IMG/VR virus record: IMGVR_UViG_3300003794_000008
Location: 1-34,110 of that record
Length of the DNA stretch: 34,110 nt
From: a virus
Reading direction: 5' to 3' (one strand)
Part shown: positions 4,970 to 33,403 of the stretch, in pieces
How the letters are laid out: each line of letters opens with the position of its first letter
How positions within the stretch are numbered: the first letter of the stretch is position 1
Translations under genes and position numbers: made by a program
The notes under the pieces: model-generated
Databases searched by the model: none
What the model saw: only the letters and a program-made list of their open reading frames with translations
What the model was told of the DNA's origin: nothing

Positions 4970-6723
4970 CAGGCAGCCCTCTTCAGCCAGTCGTTGCCGG
5001 CCTGCAGCGCGGCAGCCGACAGGGCATTGCAGATGTCGATGAACTGCGCCTGGTCGTACAGCTTGGCGGCGCCCTTCTCGGGCAAGGCGTTGAAGCCGAG
5101 CTTGGCCAGGCCGTCGGCGCTAATGGTCAGCGGCGCGATGCGGGCATTGATGTCGCCCAGCTTCATCTTGACCACCTCGCGCGGGGCGGTGCTCGCCGGT
5201 GCAGCTGCAGGTGAGCGAACCAGTACCGGGGCGGGGCGCGCAGCAGGTGCCGGCGCCGGCTCTTCCACCACCACAGGCGCAGGGGCAGCGGCGGCCGCAG
5301 CGGCAGCGGCAGCGTCGCGAGTCTGCTGCTCTTCCAGTGCCTTGCGGGCCTTCTCGGCCTCTTCCTCCCGCATCTTCACGCGCTCTCGCTCGCGGCGATC
5401 TTCTTCGGCCTTCTCGTGATCGCTGATCCGCGCTGCCACCAGGTTGCGCAGGTCTTCCGGCGCCTTGCTGGCGCACAGCTGCACGCGGTCGGCGAACAGG
5501 GTGGAGTACTCGGGCCGCTCGGCCAGGATCGCCATGTTGGCCCGGATGCGTTCGGCGGTCTGGCTGGCGGCGATCTTGGCGTTCGTGGCCACCGTGTCGA
5601 CCGCGTCCTGCATGCTGGCGAAGGAGCGCTTGCCCTTCATGGCCGCCTGCAGGTCGGCGATCAGCGTGGCCGGCATCGGCAAGCCGTGCTCTCCCAGCGT
5701 CTCGTTGATCGCGCAGACGTGATCCTGCACCGCGCGGCGGGCGTTGTGGCCGATCTCGGTGCGGCGCTCTTCTTTCCGCTTCGTGACCAGCTTGTCCAGC
5801 GCCAGACGGGTTGCCCGGGCCTGCTCGCTGATGTCATCGATCGTGCGGAACAGCAGGTCGATGCTCTCGGTCTGGCTGAGGGCATGCTGCTTGGCGCCGG
5901 CCAGTTGGCTCTCGATATCGCTGCACCACTTCACGGTCTTCTCGGCATCGGCGAAGTCCTGATCGGTGACCAGGTCCTTGCTGATTCCCTGGAACACAGC
6001 GATGGCCTGCTCCTTCCAGTCGGCGAGGTTCGAGGCGGTAACCATGCCGGTCACTTCGATGCGGAGCGCGGGCATCTGGTCCGGCGCGCGCCCGGCGGCG
6101 ACCGGCGCTGCAGGTGCCTCCGGCTCGTAGGCAGCCACGTCGGCCTCCAGCTGGGCCCAGCCGGCGACGATGCGTGCGCGCAGCTCCGGGTTCGGCGTGT
6201 ACCAGCAGTGGCGCTCTTCGACCAACTCCCACTGGCCCTCGGCGCGCTTCCACTCGGAAGCCATGAAGAACACGCGCTCGCACCCGGATACCATCGCCTG
6301 GTGCTCCATCTGCACCTGATACATAAGCGGCAGGTCGGTACCGGTGCAGCCGTCGAACATGGCATCGCGCAGGGCTTGGTTGAGGCGCTTGTGCTCCCAC
6401 GCAGTGTCTTCCAGCAGCGTGAGGCCGTCGAAGCTGGCGGAGTACTTGCCCTGGGCGCCGGTAACCGGATACAAGTCTTCGCCGACGTAGCCCTCGGCGA
6501 TTACCCGTGCCAAGGCTTCGAACTCATGTCCCGGGTCGATCACGCGCTCCTGCACGAAGTCGCTGAACTCGCGCGGGACGCCAGCCGCCAGCTCGCGCAT
6601 CAGGTCGGCGCGGGAGAAGTTGGTGGAGACGCCCAGCATGGCCGGCGCGTCGCTGGCGTTGAGATGCTGTGCCCGGTGCTGGTGCCATTCGTGGCTGCCC
6701 TGCAACAATTCGACGGTCTTCAT
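4969..6723 (-). CDS. YqaJ/lambda-exonuclease family recombinase with long C-terminal extension
   Basis: A 584-residue protein. Residues 1-200 are the nuclease: an N-terminal GSHEWHQHRAQHLNASDAPAMLG motif, then SFDG with Asp99 and WEHK with Glu110 and Lys112, the D-ExK metal-binding core of the lambda Exo/YqaJ fold. It should digest one DNA strand and hand the 3' tail to the neighbouring annealing protein. From about 220 there is a helical region resembling DUF1351-type domains, a charged coiled coil (EEDRRERERVKMREEEAEKARKALEE), an Ala/Pro-rich linker and a C-terminal domain (KLGDINARIAPLTISADGLAKLGFNALPEKGAAKLYD). Typical family members are about 200-350 residues, so this one is a multi-domain fusion. 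The chosen ATG overlaps the recT-like stop as ATGA. Confidence 0.85.
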   Translation of the reverse strand: MKTVELLQGSHEWHQHRAQHLNASDAPAMLGVSTNFSRADLMRELAAGVPREFSDFVQERVIDPGHEFEALARVIAEGYVGEDLYPVTGAQGKYSASFDGLTLLEDTAWEHKRLNQALRDAMFDGCTGTDLPLMYQVQMEHQAMVSGCERVFFMASEWKRAEGQWELVEERHCWYTPNPELRARIVAGWAQLEADVAAYEPEAPAAPVAAGRAPDQMPALRIEVTGMVTASNLADWKEQAIAVFQGISKDLVTDQDFADAEKTVKWCSDIESQLAGAKQHALSQTESIDLLFRTIDDISEQARATRLALDKLVTKRKEERRTEIGHNARRAVQDHVCAINETLGEHGLPMPATLIADLQAAMKGKRSFASMQDAVDTVATNAKIAASQTAERIRANMAILAERPEYSTLFADRVQLCASKAPEDLRNLVAARISDHEKAEEDRRERERVKMREEEAEKARKALEEQQTRDAAAAAAAAAAPAPVVVEEPAPAPAARPAPVLVRSPAAAPASTAPREVVKMKLGDINARIAPLTISADGLAKLGFNALPEKGAAKLYDQAQFIDICNALSAAALQAGNDWLKRAA

Positions 6724-25399: not shown

Positions 25400-26797
25400 A
25401 TGAAGACCCTCGCAGAACAGATGGAGTCGCTGCGTGCGACCCGTGAAGCCCACCAGAAGAAGCTGGGCGAAATCGCCCAGAAGTCGATGGACGAAAACCG
25501 TTCGTTCAATACCGGCGAGCAGGAAGAGTTCGACGATCTGGAAGAGCAGATCAAGTCGCTGGACGGCGACATCGACCGCCTCACCCGACTGCAGGCCGTC
25601 CAGGCAAAGTCGGCCGTGCCGGCGGCGCAGATCGTTCAGGAGCACGGCTCCGCGACTGACCAGCGGCGCTCCACCGGCAATGGCCAGGGCCCGTCCCTGA
25701 TCCACAGCCGCAAGAACGAGGAGCAGGGGATCGGCTTCGCCCGGTTCGCCATGGCCATGTATGCCGGCAAGGGCGACGTATCCAGTGCCAAGGCCTTCGC
25801 GGAGAACACGTTCCGCGACGACGTGCGCCTGAACGAAATCATGAAAGCCGCGGTCGCCGCCGGCAACACCACCGATCCCGCGTGGGCGGGCAATCTGGTG
25901 CACTACCAGACCCTGTCCAGCGAGTTCGTCGACTTCCTGCGCCCGCGCACCATCATCGGTCAGTTGGGCGTCGGCAATGTGCCTGGTCTGCGTCGCGTTC
26001 CCTTCAACGTGCGCATTCCGGGCAAGACCGCCAAGGGCCGCGCGCAGTGGGTTGGCGAAGGCTTCCGCAAGCCGGTTACCAAGTCGGGCTACGATGCGGC
26101 TGAGCTGAAGTGGTCCAAGATCGCGGGCATTTCGGTGATCACTGAAGAGCTCGCCCGCTTCTCCGACCCGTCCATCCAGATCCTGGTGCGTGACGATCTG
26201 TCGGACGCGGTGATCGAACGTATGGACGAGGACTTCGTCGACCCGGCCAAGGCCGCCGGGACCGGCGCGGGTCTCTCGCCGGCGTCCATCACCAATGGCG
26301 TTACGGCCATCCCCTCCACCGGTGACGTCTACGCTGATATCCAGGCGCTGTGGGCGACCGCAGACGACACCAACCTGCCGGTATCCAGTGCGGTTTACAT
26401 CACCGACAGCGCCACCGCGCGCCAGCTGGCTGGCCTGCGCAATCCGCTGATGGCGCGTGAGTTCCCCAACGTGACCATGACGGGCGGCGACATCGACGGC
26501 GTGCCGCTGGTGGTGTCCAACTACGTGGCGTCGGGAATGTTCATCCTGGCCTTCACCAGTGAGATCTATCTGGCGGATGACGGTGTCGTCACCATCGACA
26601 TCAGCAAGGAGGCAACGATCGTCATGGACGATGACGCGACCGCAACGCCGACGATCGCGCAGATCCAGAGCATGTTCCAGACCAACCAGCTCGCGATCCG
26701 TGCCGAGCGCTTCGTCAACTGGAAGAAGCGGCGCCCGCAGGCCGTGGCCTACCTCAGTGGCGTGGATTGGAGCAACAGCGCTCCGAACAGCCCGTAA
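25400..26797 (+). CDS. HK97-family major capsid protein
   Basis: A 465-residue protein from ATG 25400 behind AAGGAAAA. The N-terminal 100 residues are a charged coiled-coil delta domain (QMESLRATREAHQKKLGEIAQKS, EEFDDLEEQIKSLDGDIDRL), which the protease should remove. The HK97 fold follows: TTDPAWAGNLVHYQTLSSEFVDFLRPRTIIGQLG, VPFNVRIPGKTAKGRAQWVGEGFRKPVTK, KWSKIAGISVITEELARFSDP and AERFVNWKKRRPQAVAYLSG. It forms the icosahedral shell. In-frame codons reach 25340 but run over the hairpin leader. Confidence 0.95.
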   Translation: MKTLAEQMESLRATREAHQKKLGEIAQKSMDENRSFNTGEQEEFDDLEEQIKSLDGDIDRLTRLQAVQAKSAVPAAQIVQEHGSATDQRRSTGNGQGPSLIHSRKNEEQGIGFARFAMAMYAGKGDVSSAKAFAENTFRDDVRLNEIMKAAVAAGNTTDPAWAGNLVHYQTLSSEFVDFLRPRTIIGQLGVGNVPGLRRVPFNVRIPGKTAKGRAQWVGEGFRKPVTKSGYDAAELKWSKIAGISVITEELARFSDPSIQILVRDDLSDAVIERMDEDFVDPAKAAGTGAGLSPASITNGVTAIPSTGDVYADIQALWATADDTNLPVSSAVYITDSATARQLAGLRNPLMAREFPNVTMTGGDIDGVPLVVSNYVASGMFILAFTSEIYLADDGVVTIDISKEATIVMDDDATATPTIAQIQSMFQTNQLAIRAERFVNWKKRRPQAVAYLSGVDWSNSAPNSP

Positions 26798-27109: not shown

Positions 27110-28536
27110 CCGGCTTCTCGCCCCGCGAACTGGCCACCGAGGCCGGCGTGCGCAAGTACGGCACCGACTACCTGAAATCGCTGTCTCCGGTAGACGCTGG
27201 TCCGGGGCGAGACGGGTGGCGACCGCTGGTGCGTGAGCCATTCACCGGCGCATGGCAGCGGAATCTTGAGGAGCGCCACGACACGCTGCTCTGCTACCCG
27301 ACGCTATACGGTTGCCTCAACCGCATTTCCACGGACATCGGCAAGCTACCGTTCCTCCTGAAGCTCGAGGACGAGAATGGAATCTGGAAGCTCGACAAGA
27401 AGAACACTTCGTACTGGCCGGTACTGCGCAAGCCCAATGGCTACCAGACGGCGCAGCAGTTTCGGGAATCTTGGTTGCTGTCCAAGCTCATCCAAGGCAA
27501 TACCTACGTCCTGAAAGGCAGGGATGAACGGCAGGTCGTGACCAAGCTGTGGGTGATTGACCCGGCTCGTGTTCAGCCGATGGTGTCCGACAGCGGCGAC
27601 GTGTTCTACCAGATCAAGTACAGCACCGGTGCGAACCTGCTGCCGGAAAACTACCCCGGCGAGGATTTGATCGTACCGGCGCGCGAGGTCATCCACGACC
27701 GCATGAACTGCTTTCACCATCAGCTCATCGGCGTGCCTCCGCTTTGCGCGGCTCACTGGCCGACGGTAAAGAACCTCAAGATTTTGAAGGACTCCACGAC
27801 GTTCTTCTCGAACGGAGCCAATCCGGGCGGCATCTTGACTGCCCCCGCTGGTATGTCCGACGAGGATGCGCAGGCCGTCAAGGACTACTGGAACACCAAC
27901 TTCCAGGGGTCCAACGCTGGCCAGGTGGCGGTGGTCGGTGCCGACATGAAGTTCACGCCGTTCTCGTTCAAGTCGGCCGACAACCAGTTGGTCGAGCAGA
28001 TGCAGTACTCGGATCAACAGATCACCCAGCCCTTCGGGATTCCGCCGTTCAAGGTCGGCATCGGCTCCATCCCCGCTGGGATGAAGGTTGACGACGTGAA
28101 CCAGCTTTATTACTCCGACGCGCTGCAGGCACACATCGAGGCGATGGAGAACCTGCTGGACGAGGGCCTGGGCATCGCCCGGCCGATGGGTGTCGAGCTT
28201 GACCTGGGGCCGCTCCTGCGCATGGACGTGGGCAAGCAGGCGGAGGTGGAGACGAAGCTCGTCAGCGGAAACGTCAAGACCCCCAACGAAGGGCGGCTGG
28301 CCTTCAACCTGGCGCCCTTGGAGGGCGGCGACACGGTTTACATGCAGCAGCAGGACTACCCACTGGACCAGGTGCGCCAGAACAAGATCACCGTGGCGCC
28401 AGCCACCATCGAGCCGCCCGCGCCGGACGACGACCCGCCTCTTGACGATAGCGATGAACTACGCGCGCTGCAGCAGGAGAATTTCATGTACAAGGCCCTC
28501 GAGGCCGCGCGAGCCGAGGTGTTCCGCAATGAATGA
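27106..28536 (+). CDS. HK97-family portal protein
   Basis: A 476-residue protein with LLCYPTLYGCLNRISTDIGKLPFLL, PNGYQTAQQFRESWLLSKLIQGNTYVLKGRD, EVIHDRMNCFHHQLIGVPPL and the wing/clip segments QQITQPFGIPPFKVGIG and YYSDALQAHIEAMENLLDEGL, as in HK97-type portals. It forms the dodecameric DNA entry ring. It follows the capsid gene, unlike the usual terminase-portal-protease-capsid order. The C-terminus is acidic and Pro-rich (PPAPDDDPPLDDSDELR). Confidence 0.9.
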   Translation: MTGFSPRELATEAGVRKYGTDYLKSLSPVDAGPGRDGWRPLVREPFTGAWQRNLEERHDTLLCYPTLYGCLNRISTDIGKLPFLLKLEDENGIWKLDKKNTSYWPVLRKPNGYQTAQQFRESWLLSKLIQGNTYVLKGRDERQVVTKLWVIDPARVQPMVSDSGDVFYQIKYSTGANLLPENYPGEDLIVPAREVIHDRMNCFHHQLIGVPPLCAAHWPTVKNLKILKDSTTFFSNGANPGGILTAPAGMSDEDAQAVKDYWNTNFQGSNAGQVAVVGADMKFTPFSFKSADNQLVEQMQYSDQQITQPFGIPPFKVGIGSIPAGMKVDDVNQLYYSDALQAHIEAMENLLDEGLGIARPMGVELDLGPLLRMDVGKQAEVETKLVSGNVKTPNEGRLAFNLAPLEGGDTVYMQQQDYPLDQVRQNKITVAPATIEPPAPDDDPPLDDSDELRALQQENFMYKALEAARAEVFRNE

Positions 28537-29551
28537 CCCCATCGACTTCGGCAAAATGCTGGGCGGGCTGGTCCGCGATGCTCTGGCGCCGCTTCTGCAG
28601 CGAATCCAGCAGCTTGAGGAAAGGGAGGTGCCCGAGGGGCGCCCGGGCCGGGATGCCGACCCGGAGATGGTCGCAGAGCAGGTTCGAGCCGCGCTGGAGG
28701 GTCTGCCGGCCCCGCGAGACGGCAAGAATGCGGATCCCGTCACCGACGACCAGGTTGCGGCGCAAGTGGCCCGCCATCTGGAGGCGCATCCGGTACCGGC
28801 CGGCCGCGACGCGGATCCGGTCGACCTGGAGACGCTGGCCGACCTGGTGGTGGACAAGATGCTGGCCTCGCCGCGGCTGCTGACGTTGGTCGACCTGGCC
28901 ACCGTCGACGCAGTGTCCAAGCACTTCGAGGCCAACCCGGTGCGGCACGGCCGCGACGCAGACCCGGCGGTGATCGAGCTGGCGGTGAAGGCGGCTGTCG
29001 ATGCGCTGCCGGCGCCGAAGGATGGCCGTGACGCCGATCCGGTGACGGAGCAGCAGCTGGCCGCGCAGGTCGCCAGGCACCTGGCCGCGAACCCGCCGCA
29101 GCCCGGTGCCGAAGGTGTGGGCTTGGCCGGTGCAATGATCGATCGCGCTGGCGAGCTGGTGATCACCACCACCAAAGGTGAGGCGGTCAGGCTGGGCAAG
29201 GTCGTGGGCGAGGATGGCCGAGACGGCATCAGCTTCGAAACAGCGACTGGCGAGTACGATGCGGAGCGCGGCTTCGTCATCAAGCTCGGCGCAGGCGAGC
29301 GCCGCACCGAATTGGTCCTGCCGTACATGGTGCACCGCGGCTTCTGGCGCGAGGGCCTGGCTACGAAGGCCGGGCAGTCGATCACCCACGATGGGGCGCT
29401 GTGGATCGCGAAGCGCGACAACGCATCGAAGCCTTGCCTGGAGAATGAGCAGGATTGGGCGCTGGCTGCGCGCAAGGGCCGTGACGGAAAGGACGGCAAG
29501 AGCGTCCGCTTGCCGGCCGAGCCGGTGAAGCTGGGAGCCGGCAATGCGTGA
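28529..29551 (+). CDS. Repeat-rich, collagen-like head protein
   Basis: A 340-residue protein from ATG 28529, overlapping the portal stop. The N-terminal half carries imperfect repeats of about 40-80 residues built on GRDADP (PAPRDGKNADPVTDDQVAAQVARHLEAHPVPAGRDADPV and a second copy PAPKDGRDADPVTEQQLAAQVARHL). Near the end is a module resembling carbohydrate-binding domains (HRGFWREGLATKAGQSITHDGALWIAKRDN, then W-ALAA) and a short collagen-like GRDGKDGKS run. Surface exposure on the virion and glycan or receptor binding are inferred. It lies between the portal and the head-tail connectors. Confidence 0.7.
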   Translation: MNDPIDFGKMLGGLVRDALAPLLQRIQQLEEREVPEGRPGRDADPEMVAEQVRAALEGLPAPRDGKNADPVTDDQVAAQVARHLEAHPVPAGRDADPVDLETLADLVVDKMLASPRLLTLVDLATVDAVSKHFEANPVRHGRDADPAVIELAVKAAVDALPAPKDGRDADPVTEQQLAAQVARHLAANPPQPGAEGVGLAGAMIDRAGELVITTTKGEAVRLGKVVGEDGRDGISFETATGEYDAERGFVIKLGAGERRTELVLPYMVHRGFWREGLATKAGQSITHDGALWIAKRDNASKPCLENEQDWALAARKGRDGKDGKSVRLPAEPVKLGAGNA

Positions 29552-29939
29552 GTTCGTCACCCCGGAAGATGCGCGAGAGCAGCTGCGCATCGACAGCGAG
29601 GCTGATGACCGCTGGCTGGCCATCTGGATCCCCGCCGTCTCGGCCTCAGTGGCGGCGTGGCTGAAGCAGGAGTGGCGGCTGTACGTGTTGCAGCGCGATT
29701 CCAACGGGGACGTGGTGACGGACAGCTCGGGGGTGCCGCTGCCCGTGCTGGACAGCGACGACTTGCCGGTGCTGCAGCCGACGGTGATCGCCGCAACGCT
29801 CCTGGAGCTGGCGTCGCAGTACCGCTATCGGGAAGGCGAGGGCGACAACGCGGTGCCTGCGGATGCCGGGCACGGGTACGTGCTGTCCCGGGCGGCGACG
29901 GCTCAGCTGGCGCCCCTGCGCCGCACCACGGTGGCCTGA
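29544..29939 (+). CDS. Head-tail connector, gp6-like
   Basis: A 131-residue protein beginning MREFVTPEDAREQLRIDSEADDRWLAIWIPAVSASVAAWL, the typical start of HK97 gp6-like connectors (VTxEEAKxxLRID...DDxxL...I), then VLQPTVIAATLLELASQYRYREGE. It attaches below the portal to start the neck. ATG 29544 overlaps the preceding gene by eight bases. Length is normal. Confidence 0.85.
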   Translation: MREFVTPEDAREQLRIDSEADDRWLAIWIPAVSASVAAWLKQEWRLYVLQRDSNGDVVTDSSGVPLPVLDSDDLPVLQPTVIAATLLELASQYRYREGEGDNAVPADAGHGYVLSRAATAQLAPLRRTTVA

Positions 29940-30280
29940 TGAGCAACGTGGCGGCGGGCGAACTGCGACACCGGGTGCTGATCCAGCAGCAGATCACGAC
30001 CAGGGACAGCGACGGGATCAAGCAGGTGAGCTGGGTGGACGTGGCGACGGTGTGGGCATCGGTCGAGCCGCTGTCGGCTCGCGAGTTCATCCAGTCCGGC
30101 CAGACGCAGGCAGCGGTTACCGCGCGCATCACGATCCGTTACCGCGCCGGCCTGCTGCCGTCGATGCGCCTGCTGCACCGTGGCCAGGTCTTCAACATCG
30201 CCGGCCTGCTTCCGGACAAGGCGTCTGGGCTGGAGTACATCACCATTCCGGTCTCGGCCGGGGTCAACGACGGCCAATGA
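29939..30280 (+). CDS. Head-tail joining protein
   Basis: A 113-residue protein (AAGELRHRVLIQQQITTRDSDGIKQVSWVDVATVWASVEPLSAREFIQSGQTQAAVTARITIRYRAGL) matching the phage head-tail joining/adaptor family, with a conserved GxLRHRVxIQ start. It closes the head after packaging. ATG 29939 overlaps the upstream stop as TGATG. Confidence 0.9.
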   Translation: MSNVAAGELRHRVLIQQQITTRDSDGIKQVSWVDVATVWASVEPLSAREFIQSGQTQAAVTARITIRYRAGLLPSMRLLHRGQVFNIAGLLPDKASGLEYITIPVSAGVNDGQ

Positions 30281-30780
30281 TCGAGATCGACCTTCTGGGA
30301 CCAGGCCCGAGCGCATCGCTGGACCTGGCCGAACGGCTGCGCGGGCGACGGGTCGGGGTTGTCGGCAACGGCTTCGAACTGGCGCCGTGGGCTGAGTTCC
30401 TCGCTGCCAGCGACGTCCAGTGGTGGGACAAGCACCCCGCGGCCATGGCGTTCTGCGGTGCCAGGTATGCACCGCACCGCAAGGCGGGGCTGCAGCAGCT
30501 GCCCGGCGCGAGGACGAACTGGAACAGCGGCGTGCTCGGCCTGGCTGTCGCGGCATCGCTCGGAGCAACCCTGGTGCGGCTGCACGGTTTCGACCTCCGC
30601 GGCTCTCACTTCTTCGGTCCCTACACGAATGGCCTGCGCAACACCGCGCCGGCCCGTCGAGAGGTTCATCAACTGCAGTTCGCGCAATGGGCGCGCCAGC
30701 ATCCCCACGTCCGGGTGGTGAACTGCACCCCCGGCTCAGCTCTCAGGTGCTTCGAATTCGATGAAAAGATTGCCGCTTAA
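30277..30780 (+). CDS. DUF115/MptE-like Rossmann-fold protein
   Basis: A 167-residue protein: LLGPGPSASLDLAERLRGRRVGVVGNGFELAPWAEFLAASDVQWWDKHP, then NWNSGVLGLAVAASLGATLVRLHGFDLRG and HFFGPYTNGLRN. The GPS motif and the NSG...GFD...H pattern match a phage family related to DUF115/MptE-like proteins, several of which act in glycan or nucleotide-sugar handling. ATG 30277 overlaps the previous stop. Its end overlaps the methyltransferase by 20 bp. The activity is unknown; it probably works with the next two genes. Confidence 0.65.
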   Translation: MIEIDLLGPGPSASLDLAERLRGRRVGVVGNGFELAPWAEFLAASDVQWWDKHPAAMAFCGARYAPHRKAGLQQLPGARTNWNSGVLGLAVAASLGATLVRLHGFDLRGSHFFGPYTNGLRNTAPARREVHQLQFAQWARQHPHVRVVNCTPGSALRCFEFDEKIAA

Positions 30781-31318
30781 CTCCGTGCGCGGACGCATCC
30801 GCGCGCACATCGAGCGCTATGCCGGCGCCCTGGGGGACGACGTGCTCGAGGTCGGCAGCCGGATCCACGACCCTGCCGCGTGGTGGTGCAGCAACCGGGA
30901 TCTCGCAGCTGGTCAGTGGACTGGAATCGACATGCAGGCCGGCGATGGCGTCGACCAGGTGGCCGACATCCATGACCTGCCGGCCGAGTGGTCCGGCCGC
31001 TTCACCGGCATCGTCTGCTCCGAGGTCCTGGAACACGTGGCCCGACCGTGGCTGGCTCTGCCGGAGCTGCGCCGCGTGCTGCAGCCGGGCGGCCTGCTGG
31101 TGGTCACCACGCTTTTCGCATTCCCCGAGCACGGCTACCCGGATGACTACTACCGCTACAGCCAGAGCGGGCTGCAGCTACTGCTCGCCGATGCCGGCTT
31201 CAGCGACATCGCCACCGAGTACGCCGGCGAGGTGCCGCTCGAATTGAATGACCACGGCGAACGCGGCGTTGCGCGCCGCCGGCTGCCGATGCACACGTTC
31301 GCGGTGGCGCGGTGCTGA
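30761..31318 (+). CDS. Class I SAM-dependent methyltransferase
   Basis: A 185-residue protein with the Methyltransf_11 plan: motif I VLEVGSR (28-34), acidic ribose ligand GID (Asp57), ADIHDLP, motif IV-like GIVCSEVLEHV (83-93) and RRVLQPGGLLVVTT. The substrate is unknown; C-terminal features (FPEHGYPDDYYRYSQSGLQLLLADAGF) are those of small-molecule and sugar methyltransferases. It lies in a cassette with a glycosyltransferase, so a methylated sugar on the virion is inferred. Start ATG 30761 is within the previous gene. Confidence 0.85.
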   Translation: MKRLPLNSVRGRIRAHIERYAGALGDDVLEVGSRIHDPAAWWCSNRDLAAGQWTGIDMQAGDGVDQVADIHDLPAEWSGRFTGIVCSEVLEHVARPWLALPELRRVLQPGGLLVVTTLFAFPEHGYPDDYYRYSQSGLQLLLADAGFSDIATEYAGEVPLELNDHGERGVARRRLPMHTFAVARC

Positions 31319-31992
31319 TCCTTCTGACCGCCACTGGTGCCAGGCCTGCCGCCTGGGCGCTGTGCGAGCGCTGGATGGCCAGGCAAGACTATGCCGGCCC
31401 TGTGCGCTGGGTGATCGTGGACGACGGCCCTGAGCCGCAGCCTGTCACCTTCCGGCGCGAAGGGTGGCAGCTGGTAGTGGTCCGCCCGTCGCCGCACTGG
31501 GCGCCCGGTCAAAACACCCAGGCGCGGAACCTGATGAAGGGGCTGGCCGCCGTCGGCGCTGATGAGCGCCTGGCCATCATCGAGGACGACGACTGGTACG
31601 CGCCGGATTGGCTGACGACCGTTGATCGCGAATTGGACCGTGCGGAACTGGTCGGCGAACACCGGGCCCGCTACTACAACGTGCAGCAGCGCCGGGGCAG
31701 GCAGCTGGCCAACACCGGCCACGCCAGCCTGTGCAGCACTGCGATGCGCGGCAGCGCGCTGCAGGACTTCGCCGAAGCCTGCCGGGCACGTCCGAAGTTC
31801 ATCGACCTGGAGCTCTGGCGCCGCACGCAGGGCCGACATCTGTTCGGCGGCAACCGCGTCGTCGGCATGAAAGGACTTCCCGGCCGCGGTGGTATCGGCA
31901 TGGGCCACGACGCAGCGTTCAATGGCCAAGCCGATCCTGATGGTGCGCTGCTGCGCTCCTGGGTGGGTCTGGATGCAGAGGTGTACCGGTGA
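31312..31992 (+). CDS. GT-A-type glycosyltransferase
   Basis: A 226-residue protein from GTG 31312. It has VIVDDGP (35-40), APGQNTQARNLMKG, and the metal-binding IIEDDDWYAPDWL (acids at 91-94), the DxD site of GT-A glycosyltransferases (GT2-like), then RYYNVQQRRGRQLANTGHASLC. It should transfer a sugar from a nucleotide donor, probably to a virion protein given its position in the head-tail gene cluster. It overlaps the gp10-like gene start by four bases. Confidence 0.8.
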   Translation: MLILLTATGARPAAWALCERWMARQDYAGPVRWVIVDDGPEPQPVTFRREGWQLVVVRPSPHWAPGQNTQARNLMKGLAAVGADERLAIIEDDDWYAPDWLTTVDRELDRAELVGEHRARYYNVQQRRGRQLANTGHASLCSTAMRGSALQDFAEACRARPKFIDLELWRRTQGRHLFGGNRVVGMKGLPGRGGIGMGHDAAFNGQADPDGALLRSWVGLDAEVYR

Positions 31993-32480
31993 AGGTGGAA
32001 TTCAACATCGTCGGCATCCCGGGCATCATCCGCACGCTCAACAGCCTGCCGGCCGAGATCGTCAGCAAGAAGGGCGGTCCGGTAAAGCTGGCGCTGGCCA
32101 AGGCAGCGCGCCTGGTGCGGGATGAGGCGAAGAGCAACCTGCAACGGTCCATCGATCTGCGCGGCGCCGACAGCACTGGCACGACGGTGAGGTCCGTGAT
32201 TGCCAGCCGCGGCAAGGCGCCCAGCGACGGCAATGGCGAACGCTACCTGGTGCGGGTGAAGAAGCGCTCCTTCGTCAACGCCCGAGGGCAGAAGACGTCC
32301 ACGCTCATGACCGCCAACCTGCTGGAGTGGGGATCCGGGCACCAGCCCGCCACCCCGTGGCTGCGCCCGGCGGTGACAAGCAAGGGCCAGGAGGCCATTG
32401 ACGTGATGGTGACCGACCTGAGCCGTCGCATCGACCTGATCGTTCGGCAGCTGGCCGCCAAGAACGGGAGCGCGGGCTGA
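31989..32480 (+). CDS. HK97 gp10-like neck/tail-completion protein
   Basis: A 163-residue protein from GTG 31989 (overlap GTGA). It has VEFNIVGIPGIIRTLNSLPAEIVSKKGGPVKLALAKAARLVRDEAKSNL, RYLVRVKKRSFVNARGQK and EWGSGHQPATPWLRPAVTSKGQEAI, matching HK97 gp10-like proteins. It helps join tail and head. In many phages it follows the head-tail adaptor directly; here the three modification genes lie between. Confidence 0.85.
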   Translation: MKVEFNIVGIPGIIRTLNSLPAEIVSKKGGPVKLALAKAARLVRDEAKSNLQRSIDLRGADSTGTTVRSVIASRGKAPSDGNGERYLVRVKKRSFVNARGQKTSTLMTANLLEWGSGHQPATPWLRPAVTSKGQEAIDVMVTDLSRRIDLIVRQLAAKNGSAG

Positions 32481-32833
32481 TGTTTCCAAAGGTCTACCGC
32501 ACCATCCACACCGCGGCGGTCGCCGCCATCGTCGAAACGCGCATCGGCCGGCACGGCGAAGTGTCCCAGACGGAGCAGCGCCCTTACATCACCTGGCAGA
32601 TCGTCACTGGGCTGCCTTACGACAACCTCAGCACTGCACCGGGCGGCGACTTCACCACGGTGCAGCTGGACTGTTACCACCCCACCGACGCCGGCGCGGA
32701 ACAGCTGGCACTCGCGGTGCGTGCTGCCCTGGACGCGGCCCTGATCTGCAATCGCATCGTGCTCAACAACCGCGATCCGGACACGAAGCTCTACCGGGTC
32801 GGCATGGAAGCCGACTTCATCGACCAGCGGTGA
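32480..32833 (+). CDS. Tail terminator / DUF3168-like protein
   Basis: A 117-residue protein from ATG 32480 (TGATG overlap): FPKVYRTIHTAAVAAIVETRIGRHGEVSQTEQRPYITWQIV, then VQLDCYHPTDAGAEQLALAVRAAL and a C-terminal strand (LYRVGMEADFIDQR). The plan and position match DUF3168/tail-terminator proteins, which cap the tail tube. Confidence 0.8.
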   Translation: MFPKVYRTIHTAAVAAIVETRIGRHGEVSQTEQRPYITWQIVTGLPYDNLSTAPGGDFTTVQLDCYHPTDAGAEQLALAVRAALDAALICNRIVLNNRDPDTKLYRVGMEADFIDQR

Positions 32834-32855
32834 GCCGCTGGCACCCCCCAACCCG

Positions 32856-32879
32856 ACCGCCGCAAGGCGGTTTTTCTTT
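32856..32879 (+). terminator. Intrinsic terminator before the tail-tube gene
   Basis: ACCGCC-GCAA-GGCGGT followed by TTTTTCTTT (32871-32879). It lies in a 63-bp gap before the tail-tube gene. Because the gap lies within the late operon, Q-modified polymerase is expected to pass it. Confidence 0.8.
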
Positions 32880-32896
32880 GACCAGAGGAATTTGAA

Positions 32897-33403
32897 ATGA
32901 CCGAGGGCGTCATCAAAACCCAGGGGTCCGAGCTCTTCACCGTGGACAAGCTGAGTTCCAGCGTCGCCTCGGTCCTGAAGTTCGAGTGCCCGACTGGCAT
33001 CACCGGCCTGGGCGGCGCGGCCGACCAGATTGAATCCACCTGCCTGAGCACCGTGGGCGACAAGGAATACGAAGGCGGCCTGGGCAACCCGGGGCAGGTC
33101 AGCGTTCCGTTCAACTTCATCCCGCGCAGCCAGTCCCACCAGATCCTGTTCGAGCTGAAGGAATCACGCGAGGTCGTCGACTGGTTGATCGGCCTGAGCG
33201 ACGGCGTGGCGGTGCCCACCCTGGACTCCAACGACAACCTGGTGGCGCCGGCGGCACCGCTCCGGACGTCCATCGGGTTCCGTGGCTACGTTTCGGACCT
33301 GAACATCGATATCGCCACGAACGAAATCGTGCGCGGCACGCTGACGATCCAGCGCAGCGGCAGCGTAATCCCCTACTGGAACGGCGACTACGCGGCGGCG
33401 TAA
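32897..33403 (+). CDS. Major tail tube protein
   Basis: A 168-residue protein from ATG 32897 behind GAGGAA: MTEGVIKTQGSELFTVDKLSS, then FECPTGITGLGGAADQIESTCLST and GNPGQVSVPFNFIPRSQSHQILF. This is the signature of the long-tailed-phage tail tube family (TIGR-type, lambda gpV-like). It polymerises to form the tail tube. Position between tail terminator and chaperones supports it. Confidence 0.85.
   Translation: MTEGVIKTQGSELFTVDKLSSSVASVLKFECPTGITGLGGAADQIESTCLSTVGDKEYEGGLGNPGQVSVPFNFIPRSQSHQILFELKESREVVDWLIGLSDGVAVPTLDSNDNLVAPAAPLRTSIGFRGYVSDLNIDIATNEIVRGTLTIQRSGSVIPYWNGDYAAA

Follow-up and report, generated by a model that had tools for sequence, protein, structure and literature searches.

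Introduction

Glycosylated phage particles have been documented mainly in mycobacteriophages. The glycosylation targets reported for these phages are the capsid and the tail tube (PMC12363180). In the mycobacteriophage Corndog, genes for an O-methyltransferase and for glycosyltransferases lie between the portal and the protease genes; their products were found in infected cells and were absent from twice-banded virions, in which unexpectedly few capsid peptides were detected (PMC4351075). A later report describes Corndog virions as glycosylated (Freeman 2023, cited in PMC12363180). A preliminary description of the DNA analysed here referred to virion glycosylation in some mycobacteriophages, and Corndog does provide a functional precedent. 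In phage P1, pmgO, pmgP and pmgQ were each found to be nonessential for lytic growth, both by CRISPRi and by deletion (PMC10695390), and the main text of a P1 virion study, for which 29 genes were knocked out singly (24 of the knockouts had no plaque defect), names neither these genes nor glycosylation (PMC9024508). Together these two reports fit a dispensable decoration which has so far not been looked for.

The locus described here is a set of three genes, g1, MT and GT, in the virus record IMGVR_UViG_3300003794_000008. As in Corndog and Firecracker, methyltransferase and glycosyltransferase genes are found in a late structural (head) operon. The Corndog/Firecracker sets differ in occupying another slot (portal to protease), in having no g1-type protein and in belonging to phages of a mycobacterial host, and profiles A1-A3 of the cassette gave no significant match to Firecracker gp33-gp36 or to Che8 gp108-gp110.

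Results

The window, i.e. the whole stretch of DNA that was analysed, consists of 34,110 bases with a GC content of 66 % and is a temperate-type siphophage record. The source phage is a Stenotrophomonas/Xanthomonas-type temperate phage. The cassette and its neighbours are the following:

28529..29551, + strand: collagen-like protein with GRDADP repeats, after the portal gene (from sequence; homologue PAJU2 gp07, E 1e-22)
29544..29939, + strand: Ad1 head-tail adaptor (phrog_40, E 2e-8)
29939..30280, + strand: Hc1 head-closure protein, upstream neighbour of g1 (PF05521, E 3e-28; phrog_25, E 2e-35)
30277..30780, + strand: g1, 167 aa, putative glycosyltransferase of a minimal DUF115/MptE/GT42 type (PHROG 4603, AF2 fold, dN/dS)
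30761..31318, + strand: MT, 185 aa, class I SAM-dependent methyltransferase, UbiG/sugar-O-methyltransferase-like (Methyltransf_11 and PDB profile matches)
31312..31992, + strand: GT, 226 aa, GT-A (family-2-like) glycosyltransferase with a GTG start (Glycos_transf_2 in relatives, AF2 fold)
31989..32480, + strand: HK97 gp10-like/Neck1 tail-completion protein, downstream neighbour of GT (phrog_5, E 1.6e-12)
32480..32833, + strand: tail terminator (PF11367, E 6e-11; phrog_78)

The three open reading frames between the Hc1 and gp10-like genes are real, and they overlap as originally described: by 4 bp (ATGA) between Hc1 and g1, 20 bp between g1 and MT and 7 bp between MT and GT, with a further 4 bp between GT and gp10. 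These overlaps support the suggested co-translation with the late head-tail genes. A search for sigma-70-like promoters in 29300-32900 found none, and within 30277-31992 the coding strand showed no terminator-like site. Given this and the same-strand overlaps, the cassette is probably expressed together with the late connector genes. Its GC content, also by codon position, matches that of the neighbouring genes.

The g1 protein belongs to PHROG 4603, a family named 'alpha-2,3-sialyltransferase' (E 4.9e-25, residues 8-161 of 167), and has no match in Pfam. The MptE-like/DUF115 family PF01973 matches 6 of 39 g1 relatives weakly (best E 0.003) and P1 PmgO with an E value of 6e-5, all of them under the gathering cut-off of 34.6 bits. 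No relative of g1, and no match to Cst-I/II, was found in sequence searches against PDB, whereas the fold search did find relatives. With an AF2 model of pLDDT 95, the best fold match, with a Z score of 13.3 over 154 residues, was the Maf flagellin glycosyltransferase (5mu5), and Cst-I was matched with Z 11.6 over 155 residues at an rmsd of 3.2 (range for Cst-I/Cst-II Z 11-12), thiamin pyrophosphokinase with Z 10.8 and the MptE HPPK 8sd5 with Z 10.2. Thus g1 shares the fold of both the MptE-like/DUF115 and the GT42 proteins but, being a minimal protein of 167 aa, is only 12-16 % identical to Maf and to Cst-I/Cst-II. The preliminary description had proposed structure prediction as a check of its DUF115/MptE assignment; the prediction shows the assignment to be right at the fold level, though g1 stays under the Pfam cut-off. 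In the literature we found no biochemical data on any PHROG 4603 member and nothing relevant on DUF115/MptE-like proteins in phages.

The other two enzyme classes, also named from the beginning, are supported as well. MT is a class I SAM methyltransferase according to its match to Methyltransf_11 (E 4e-9, 37.3 bits against a cut-off of 21.2), and its profile found UbiG (E 1e-7) and EvdMO1 (E 1.5e-4) in PDB. The match of GT to Glycos_transf_2 (PF00535; E 3e-4) is, at 21.1 bits, just under the cut-off of 23.3 bits; the signature is present in 37 of 40 GT relatives (best 2e-11). GT has an invariant EDDD motif. The AF2 model of GT (pLDDT 93.7) has the GT-A fold, with WrtF fucosyltransferase (Z 17.4), AvpGT (16.9) and SpsA (16.4) as matches. 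Identity to these three is about 15 %; donor and acceptor do not follow from these matches.

In a viral contig collection, g1 relatives were found in 33 loci and GT relatives in 54, and in nearly all of these the cassette genes lie between the portal/capsid and the tail tube genes. Complete open reading frames of all three genes are present in 27 loci, 20 of which, the window's own copy included, have overlaps of exactly 20 and 7 bp. The median dN/dS values of 0.15-0.17 (g1 0.17, MT 0.15; about 0.16 overall) indicate purifying selection. The recurrent order, the exact overlaps and the dN/dS of about 0.16 show that the cassette is more than a chance arrangement. It is a dispensable insert, judging from clean empty sites in which gp10 directly follows Hc1. 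In about 20 cassette-less contigs with an Hc1 78-89 % identical to that of the window, the gp10 start codon stands 3-5 bp after the Hc1 end, confirming that the two genes are usually adjacent, as had been claimed. Among contigs with an Hc1 at least 78 % identical and with the same portal and collagen-like genes, 20 have the cassette (cut off after MT in one of them) and 3 do not (L093, L104 and L113); it is absent from every contig of this Hc1 set whose portal side is unrelated and whose left flank is long enough. Relatedness among the contigs means that the counts do not represent independent events.

In other contigs the same slot carries additional or other sugar-related genes. L076 has genes for GT2 and GT-B enzymes, L030 one for a Capsule_synth protein, L025 one for another MptE-like protein, L082 a GT2+GT9 fusion with two methyltransferases, L069 an RMNT/CmcI-like methyltransferase, and L029 a 2OG oxygenase with an extra methyltransferase. 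A DNA N6/N4 methylase gene was found between Ad1 and Hc1 in L019 (3738-4643, PF01555 E 9e-29) and L033 (482-1204, E 4e-26), so the connector module takes cargo at more than one joint. Since DNA methylase genes are also taken up, location alone is no proof of a role in the virion.

Cassette-carrying prophages were found in Stenotrophomonas, Lysobacter, Xanthomonas, Thiobacillus, Edaphovirga, Roseovarius and other bacteria; 2 of 81 Stenotrophomonas-group genomes searched carry it, the starting genome included. Four of seven related virus records have integrase genes. NeuB (PF03102) was absent from all six host genomes with cassette prophages, which may be incomplete drafts (the control was positive in 9 of 14), and a KdsB/NeuA-type CTP transferase was present in all six. 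The absence of NeuB makes the name 'alpha-2,3-sialyltransferase' doubtful.

The cassette had no DNA-level match among 50,697 phage records, and protein searches with MT and GT gave little or nothing in known phages. The link to known phages was obtained solely through Citrobacter phage phiNP, in which an unannotated g1 stands ahead of genes for another MptE-like protein, a glycosyltransferase of PHROG 1962 and a minor tail protein. With this bridge the family reaches 65 phage records, including P1 (PmgO), P7 (HdmB), Pseudomonas D3, PAJU2, PMG1, the Klebsiella jumbo phage Eowyn and Caulobacter jumbo phages. All bacterial hosts named among the records listed are Gram-negative, and three records name an alga. 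The g1 of phiNP (OR565852, L183) is the reading frame 5986-6588, matching PHROG 4603 with E 7e-55; the phiNP protein annotated as 'alpha-2,3-sialyltransferase', encoded beside it, better matches PHROG 2111.

In PAJU2 (Detrevirus) the order of the module is as in the window: portal, collagen-like gp07, Ad1, Hc1, g1, GT-like, MT, gp10-like, tail terminator and major tail protein. Within its gp10-gp12 the g1 protein is homologous to that of the window (profile E 3e-45), but gp11 (GT-like, annotated as hypothetical) and gp12 (MT) have no homology to the GT and MT of the window (profile A2 no match, A3 E 1.2), and the two partner genes follow g1 in the opposite order (g1, MT, GT in the window). In D3/PMG1-like phages g1 precedes Ad1 and the other two genes, again unrelated to those of the window, come after Hc1. 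No functional study of the PAJU2/D3-type set was found in the literature searched. Eowyn (L189, 4995-7080) has a PAJU2-type trio of g1, GT-like and MT genes near the genome end, in the opposite orientation to the surrounding genes. The trio thus moves between siphophages and jumbo phages as one unit. Across the family g1 is the constant part, the GT and MT partners being swapped.

P1 PmgO is also a homologue of g1 (profile E 3e-39), with a weaker match for PmgP (5e-4), and the Hdm genes of P7 are their counterparts. In P1 (L186, 4941-7499), pmgO and pmgP are followed by a glycosyltransferase-type gene (pmgQ, PHROG 1962), and the set has an annotated late promoter upstream; it differs from the window in lying outside the Hc1-gp10 slot, in having no methyltransferase gene and in having a protein phosphatase gene (ppp). 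The existence of the PAJU2, D3/PMG1 and P1 sets means that this kind of cassette is not new in proteobacterial phages, though it was unrecognised. The suggestion that it may be a new version holds only in part: PAJU2 has a parallel set of g1, GT and MT in the same slot, D3/PMG1 have one at a shifted position, and P1 has pmgO, pmgP and pmgQ. The GT and MT of the PAJU2 and D3-type sets are not orthologous to those of the window.

Discussion

Because the cassette is expected to be expressed with the head-tail genes, virion glycosylation is its most plausible role. We consider it somewhat probable that this is an optional late cassette of a temperate siphophage, predicted to place a short glycan, probably a methylated one, on a virion protein synthesised in the same period. 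Translation of the three genes would coincide with that of the connector genes, while virions are being assembled. In the order of steps that we envisage, g1, with its minimal Maf/GT42-like domain, and the GT-A enzyme would build or attach a short glycan late, in the cytoplasm, and MT would probably O-methylate it. The acceptor would most likely be a virion protein synthesised at the same stage and site as the enzymes. Particles could be produced without the modification, and its benefit would lie in the particle's dealings with its environment, i.e. adsorption, antibodies, proteases and superinfecting phages.

Several observations favour a virion role. Among them are the same-strand overlaps with late connector genes, the conserved overlap lengths, the clean empty sites, the Corndog precedent and the way in which cassette divergence follows the portal-to-Hc1 block. 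Maf, the best match to the predicted fold of g1, glycosylates a protein, flagellin, and this would speak for a protein acceptor. The module between capsid and tail tube has repeatedly acquired other sugar enzymes, the combination of g1 with unrelated GT and unrelated MT recurs in the connector module of PAJU2 and D3, and the P1 homologues are nonessential with a late promoter upstream. Counting against it are the orientation of the Eowyn trio, opposite to its neighbours, and the lack of covariation of the cassette with capsid or tail tube, the targets in mycobacteriophages.

The enzymes might instead modify the host surface (LPS, capsule, flagellin or pilin), either in the lysogen or towards the end of infection, thereby excluding other phages or freeing progeny from debris. 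The flagellin glycosyltransferase as closest fold to g1, the temperate character of the phages (integrase genes in the records mentioned above), the placing of the P1 PmgQ-type glycosyltransferase under moron/host takeover in PHROGs, and the Capsule_synth or GT9-type genes in some relatives all agree with such a role. Expression in the lysogen is, however, not expected with no promoter of its own found and with the overlaps with late genes; Gtr-type conversion needs membrane proteins, whereas the cassette proteins are small and of soluble-enzyme type, and D3 converts the O antigen of its host via a separate gene set. On balance we regard modification of the host surface as unlikely. A further possibility is late accessory cargo, in which case the trio would make or modify a small soluble or lipid-linked sugar compound (a signal or exclusion factor) and the slot would be a tolerated insertion site. 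The slot cargo is diverse, DNA methylases included, and the trio is dispensable and moves as a unit, as in Eowyn; yet sugar enzymes recur more often than other cargo in the loci examined, GT and MT are exchanged around a constant g1, and the site is within the virion module across very different phages, which makes accessory cargo rather improbable.

The RefSeq and PHROG names imply that g1 is a genuine sialyltransferase with CMP-sialic, pseudaminic or legionaminic acid as donor, which in our opinion is very unlikely. The PHROG 4603 name and a fold near Cst-I/II and Maf are in its favour, but g1 has no sequence match to Cst-I/II, and NeuB is missing from the same six host genomes, possibly incomplete drafts, that have a KdsB/NeuA-type CTP transferase. 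Sialic acid as the donor is thus not supported. Gram-negative cells make CMP-Kdo for their LPS, and one may speculate that CMP-Kdo serves as a donor for the cassette. Phage glycosyltransferases can also act on DNA, and DNA methylases are encoded nearby in some relatives. Glycosylated or hypermodified bases as the product are nevertheless hardly credible here: the genes are in a late structural operon, no base-modifying precursor enzyme was seen among those window proteins that were scanned, and no DNA glucosyltransferase was among the fold-search matches, which at most makes one less likely.

Returning to virion glycosylation, a wider proposal can be made tentatively, as one that may well prove wrong: many phages of Gram-negative bacteria, P1 and D3 included, would have widespread, unrecognised virion-modification cassettes, built of a minimal Maf/GT42-like PHROG 4603 enzyme and interchangeable glycosyltransferases and methyltransferases, and using a donor other than NeuB-made sialic acid (CMP-Kdo being one candidate). 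If this is true, virion glycosylation would be widespread among temperate phages with Gram-negative hosts and would have been overlooked in two classical laboratory phages, and the unexplained nonessential genes pmgO, pmgP and pmgQ of P1, as well as orf7 of D3, would acquire a function. The cassette family is large and barely studied, and as it includes P1 and D3 the idea is directly testable there. It would be of relevance for phage therapy because virion glycans can alter antibody recognition.

As to the acceptor, the distances of the cassette genes (g1, MT and GT) were compared with those of virion genes among close relatives (21 entries), in which one contig occurs twice (L008 = L044) and the sequences are related, so that p-values are indicative only. 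Mantel correlations with portal, collagen-like protein, Ad1 and Hc1 were 0.47-0.85 (0.59-0.85 for the collagen-like protein), and those with capsid (0.09-0.19), gp10 (0.08-0.20) and tail tube (0.06-0.21) were low. This weakly suggests that the acceptor is encoded in the portal-to-Hc1 block, but it may also reflect no more than recombination breakpoints just downstream of GT and upstream of portal. The low values for capsid and tail tube weaken the case for a system specific for either of these proteins. The collagen-like protein was dropped as a universal acceptor: D3-like phages and modules of the L056/L060 type have the cassette without a collagen-like gene. As the cassette also accompanies portal and capsid genes of unrelated types (L056, L060 and D3), no single virion protein stands out as its partner.

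Among phages with a common portal-to-cassette block, the capsid type is exchanged (window 25400-26797; 90 %, about 50 % and about 39 % identity), which indicates a recombination joint between capsid and portal. The collagen-like protein (28529-29551) has a C-terminal tryptophan-rich domain which by eye is like carbohydrate-binding modules. Its family, PHROG 1289, is named 'portal protein', which looks like a misannotation.
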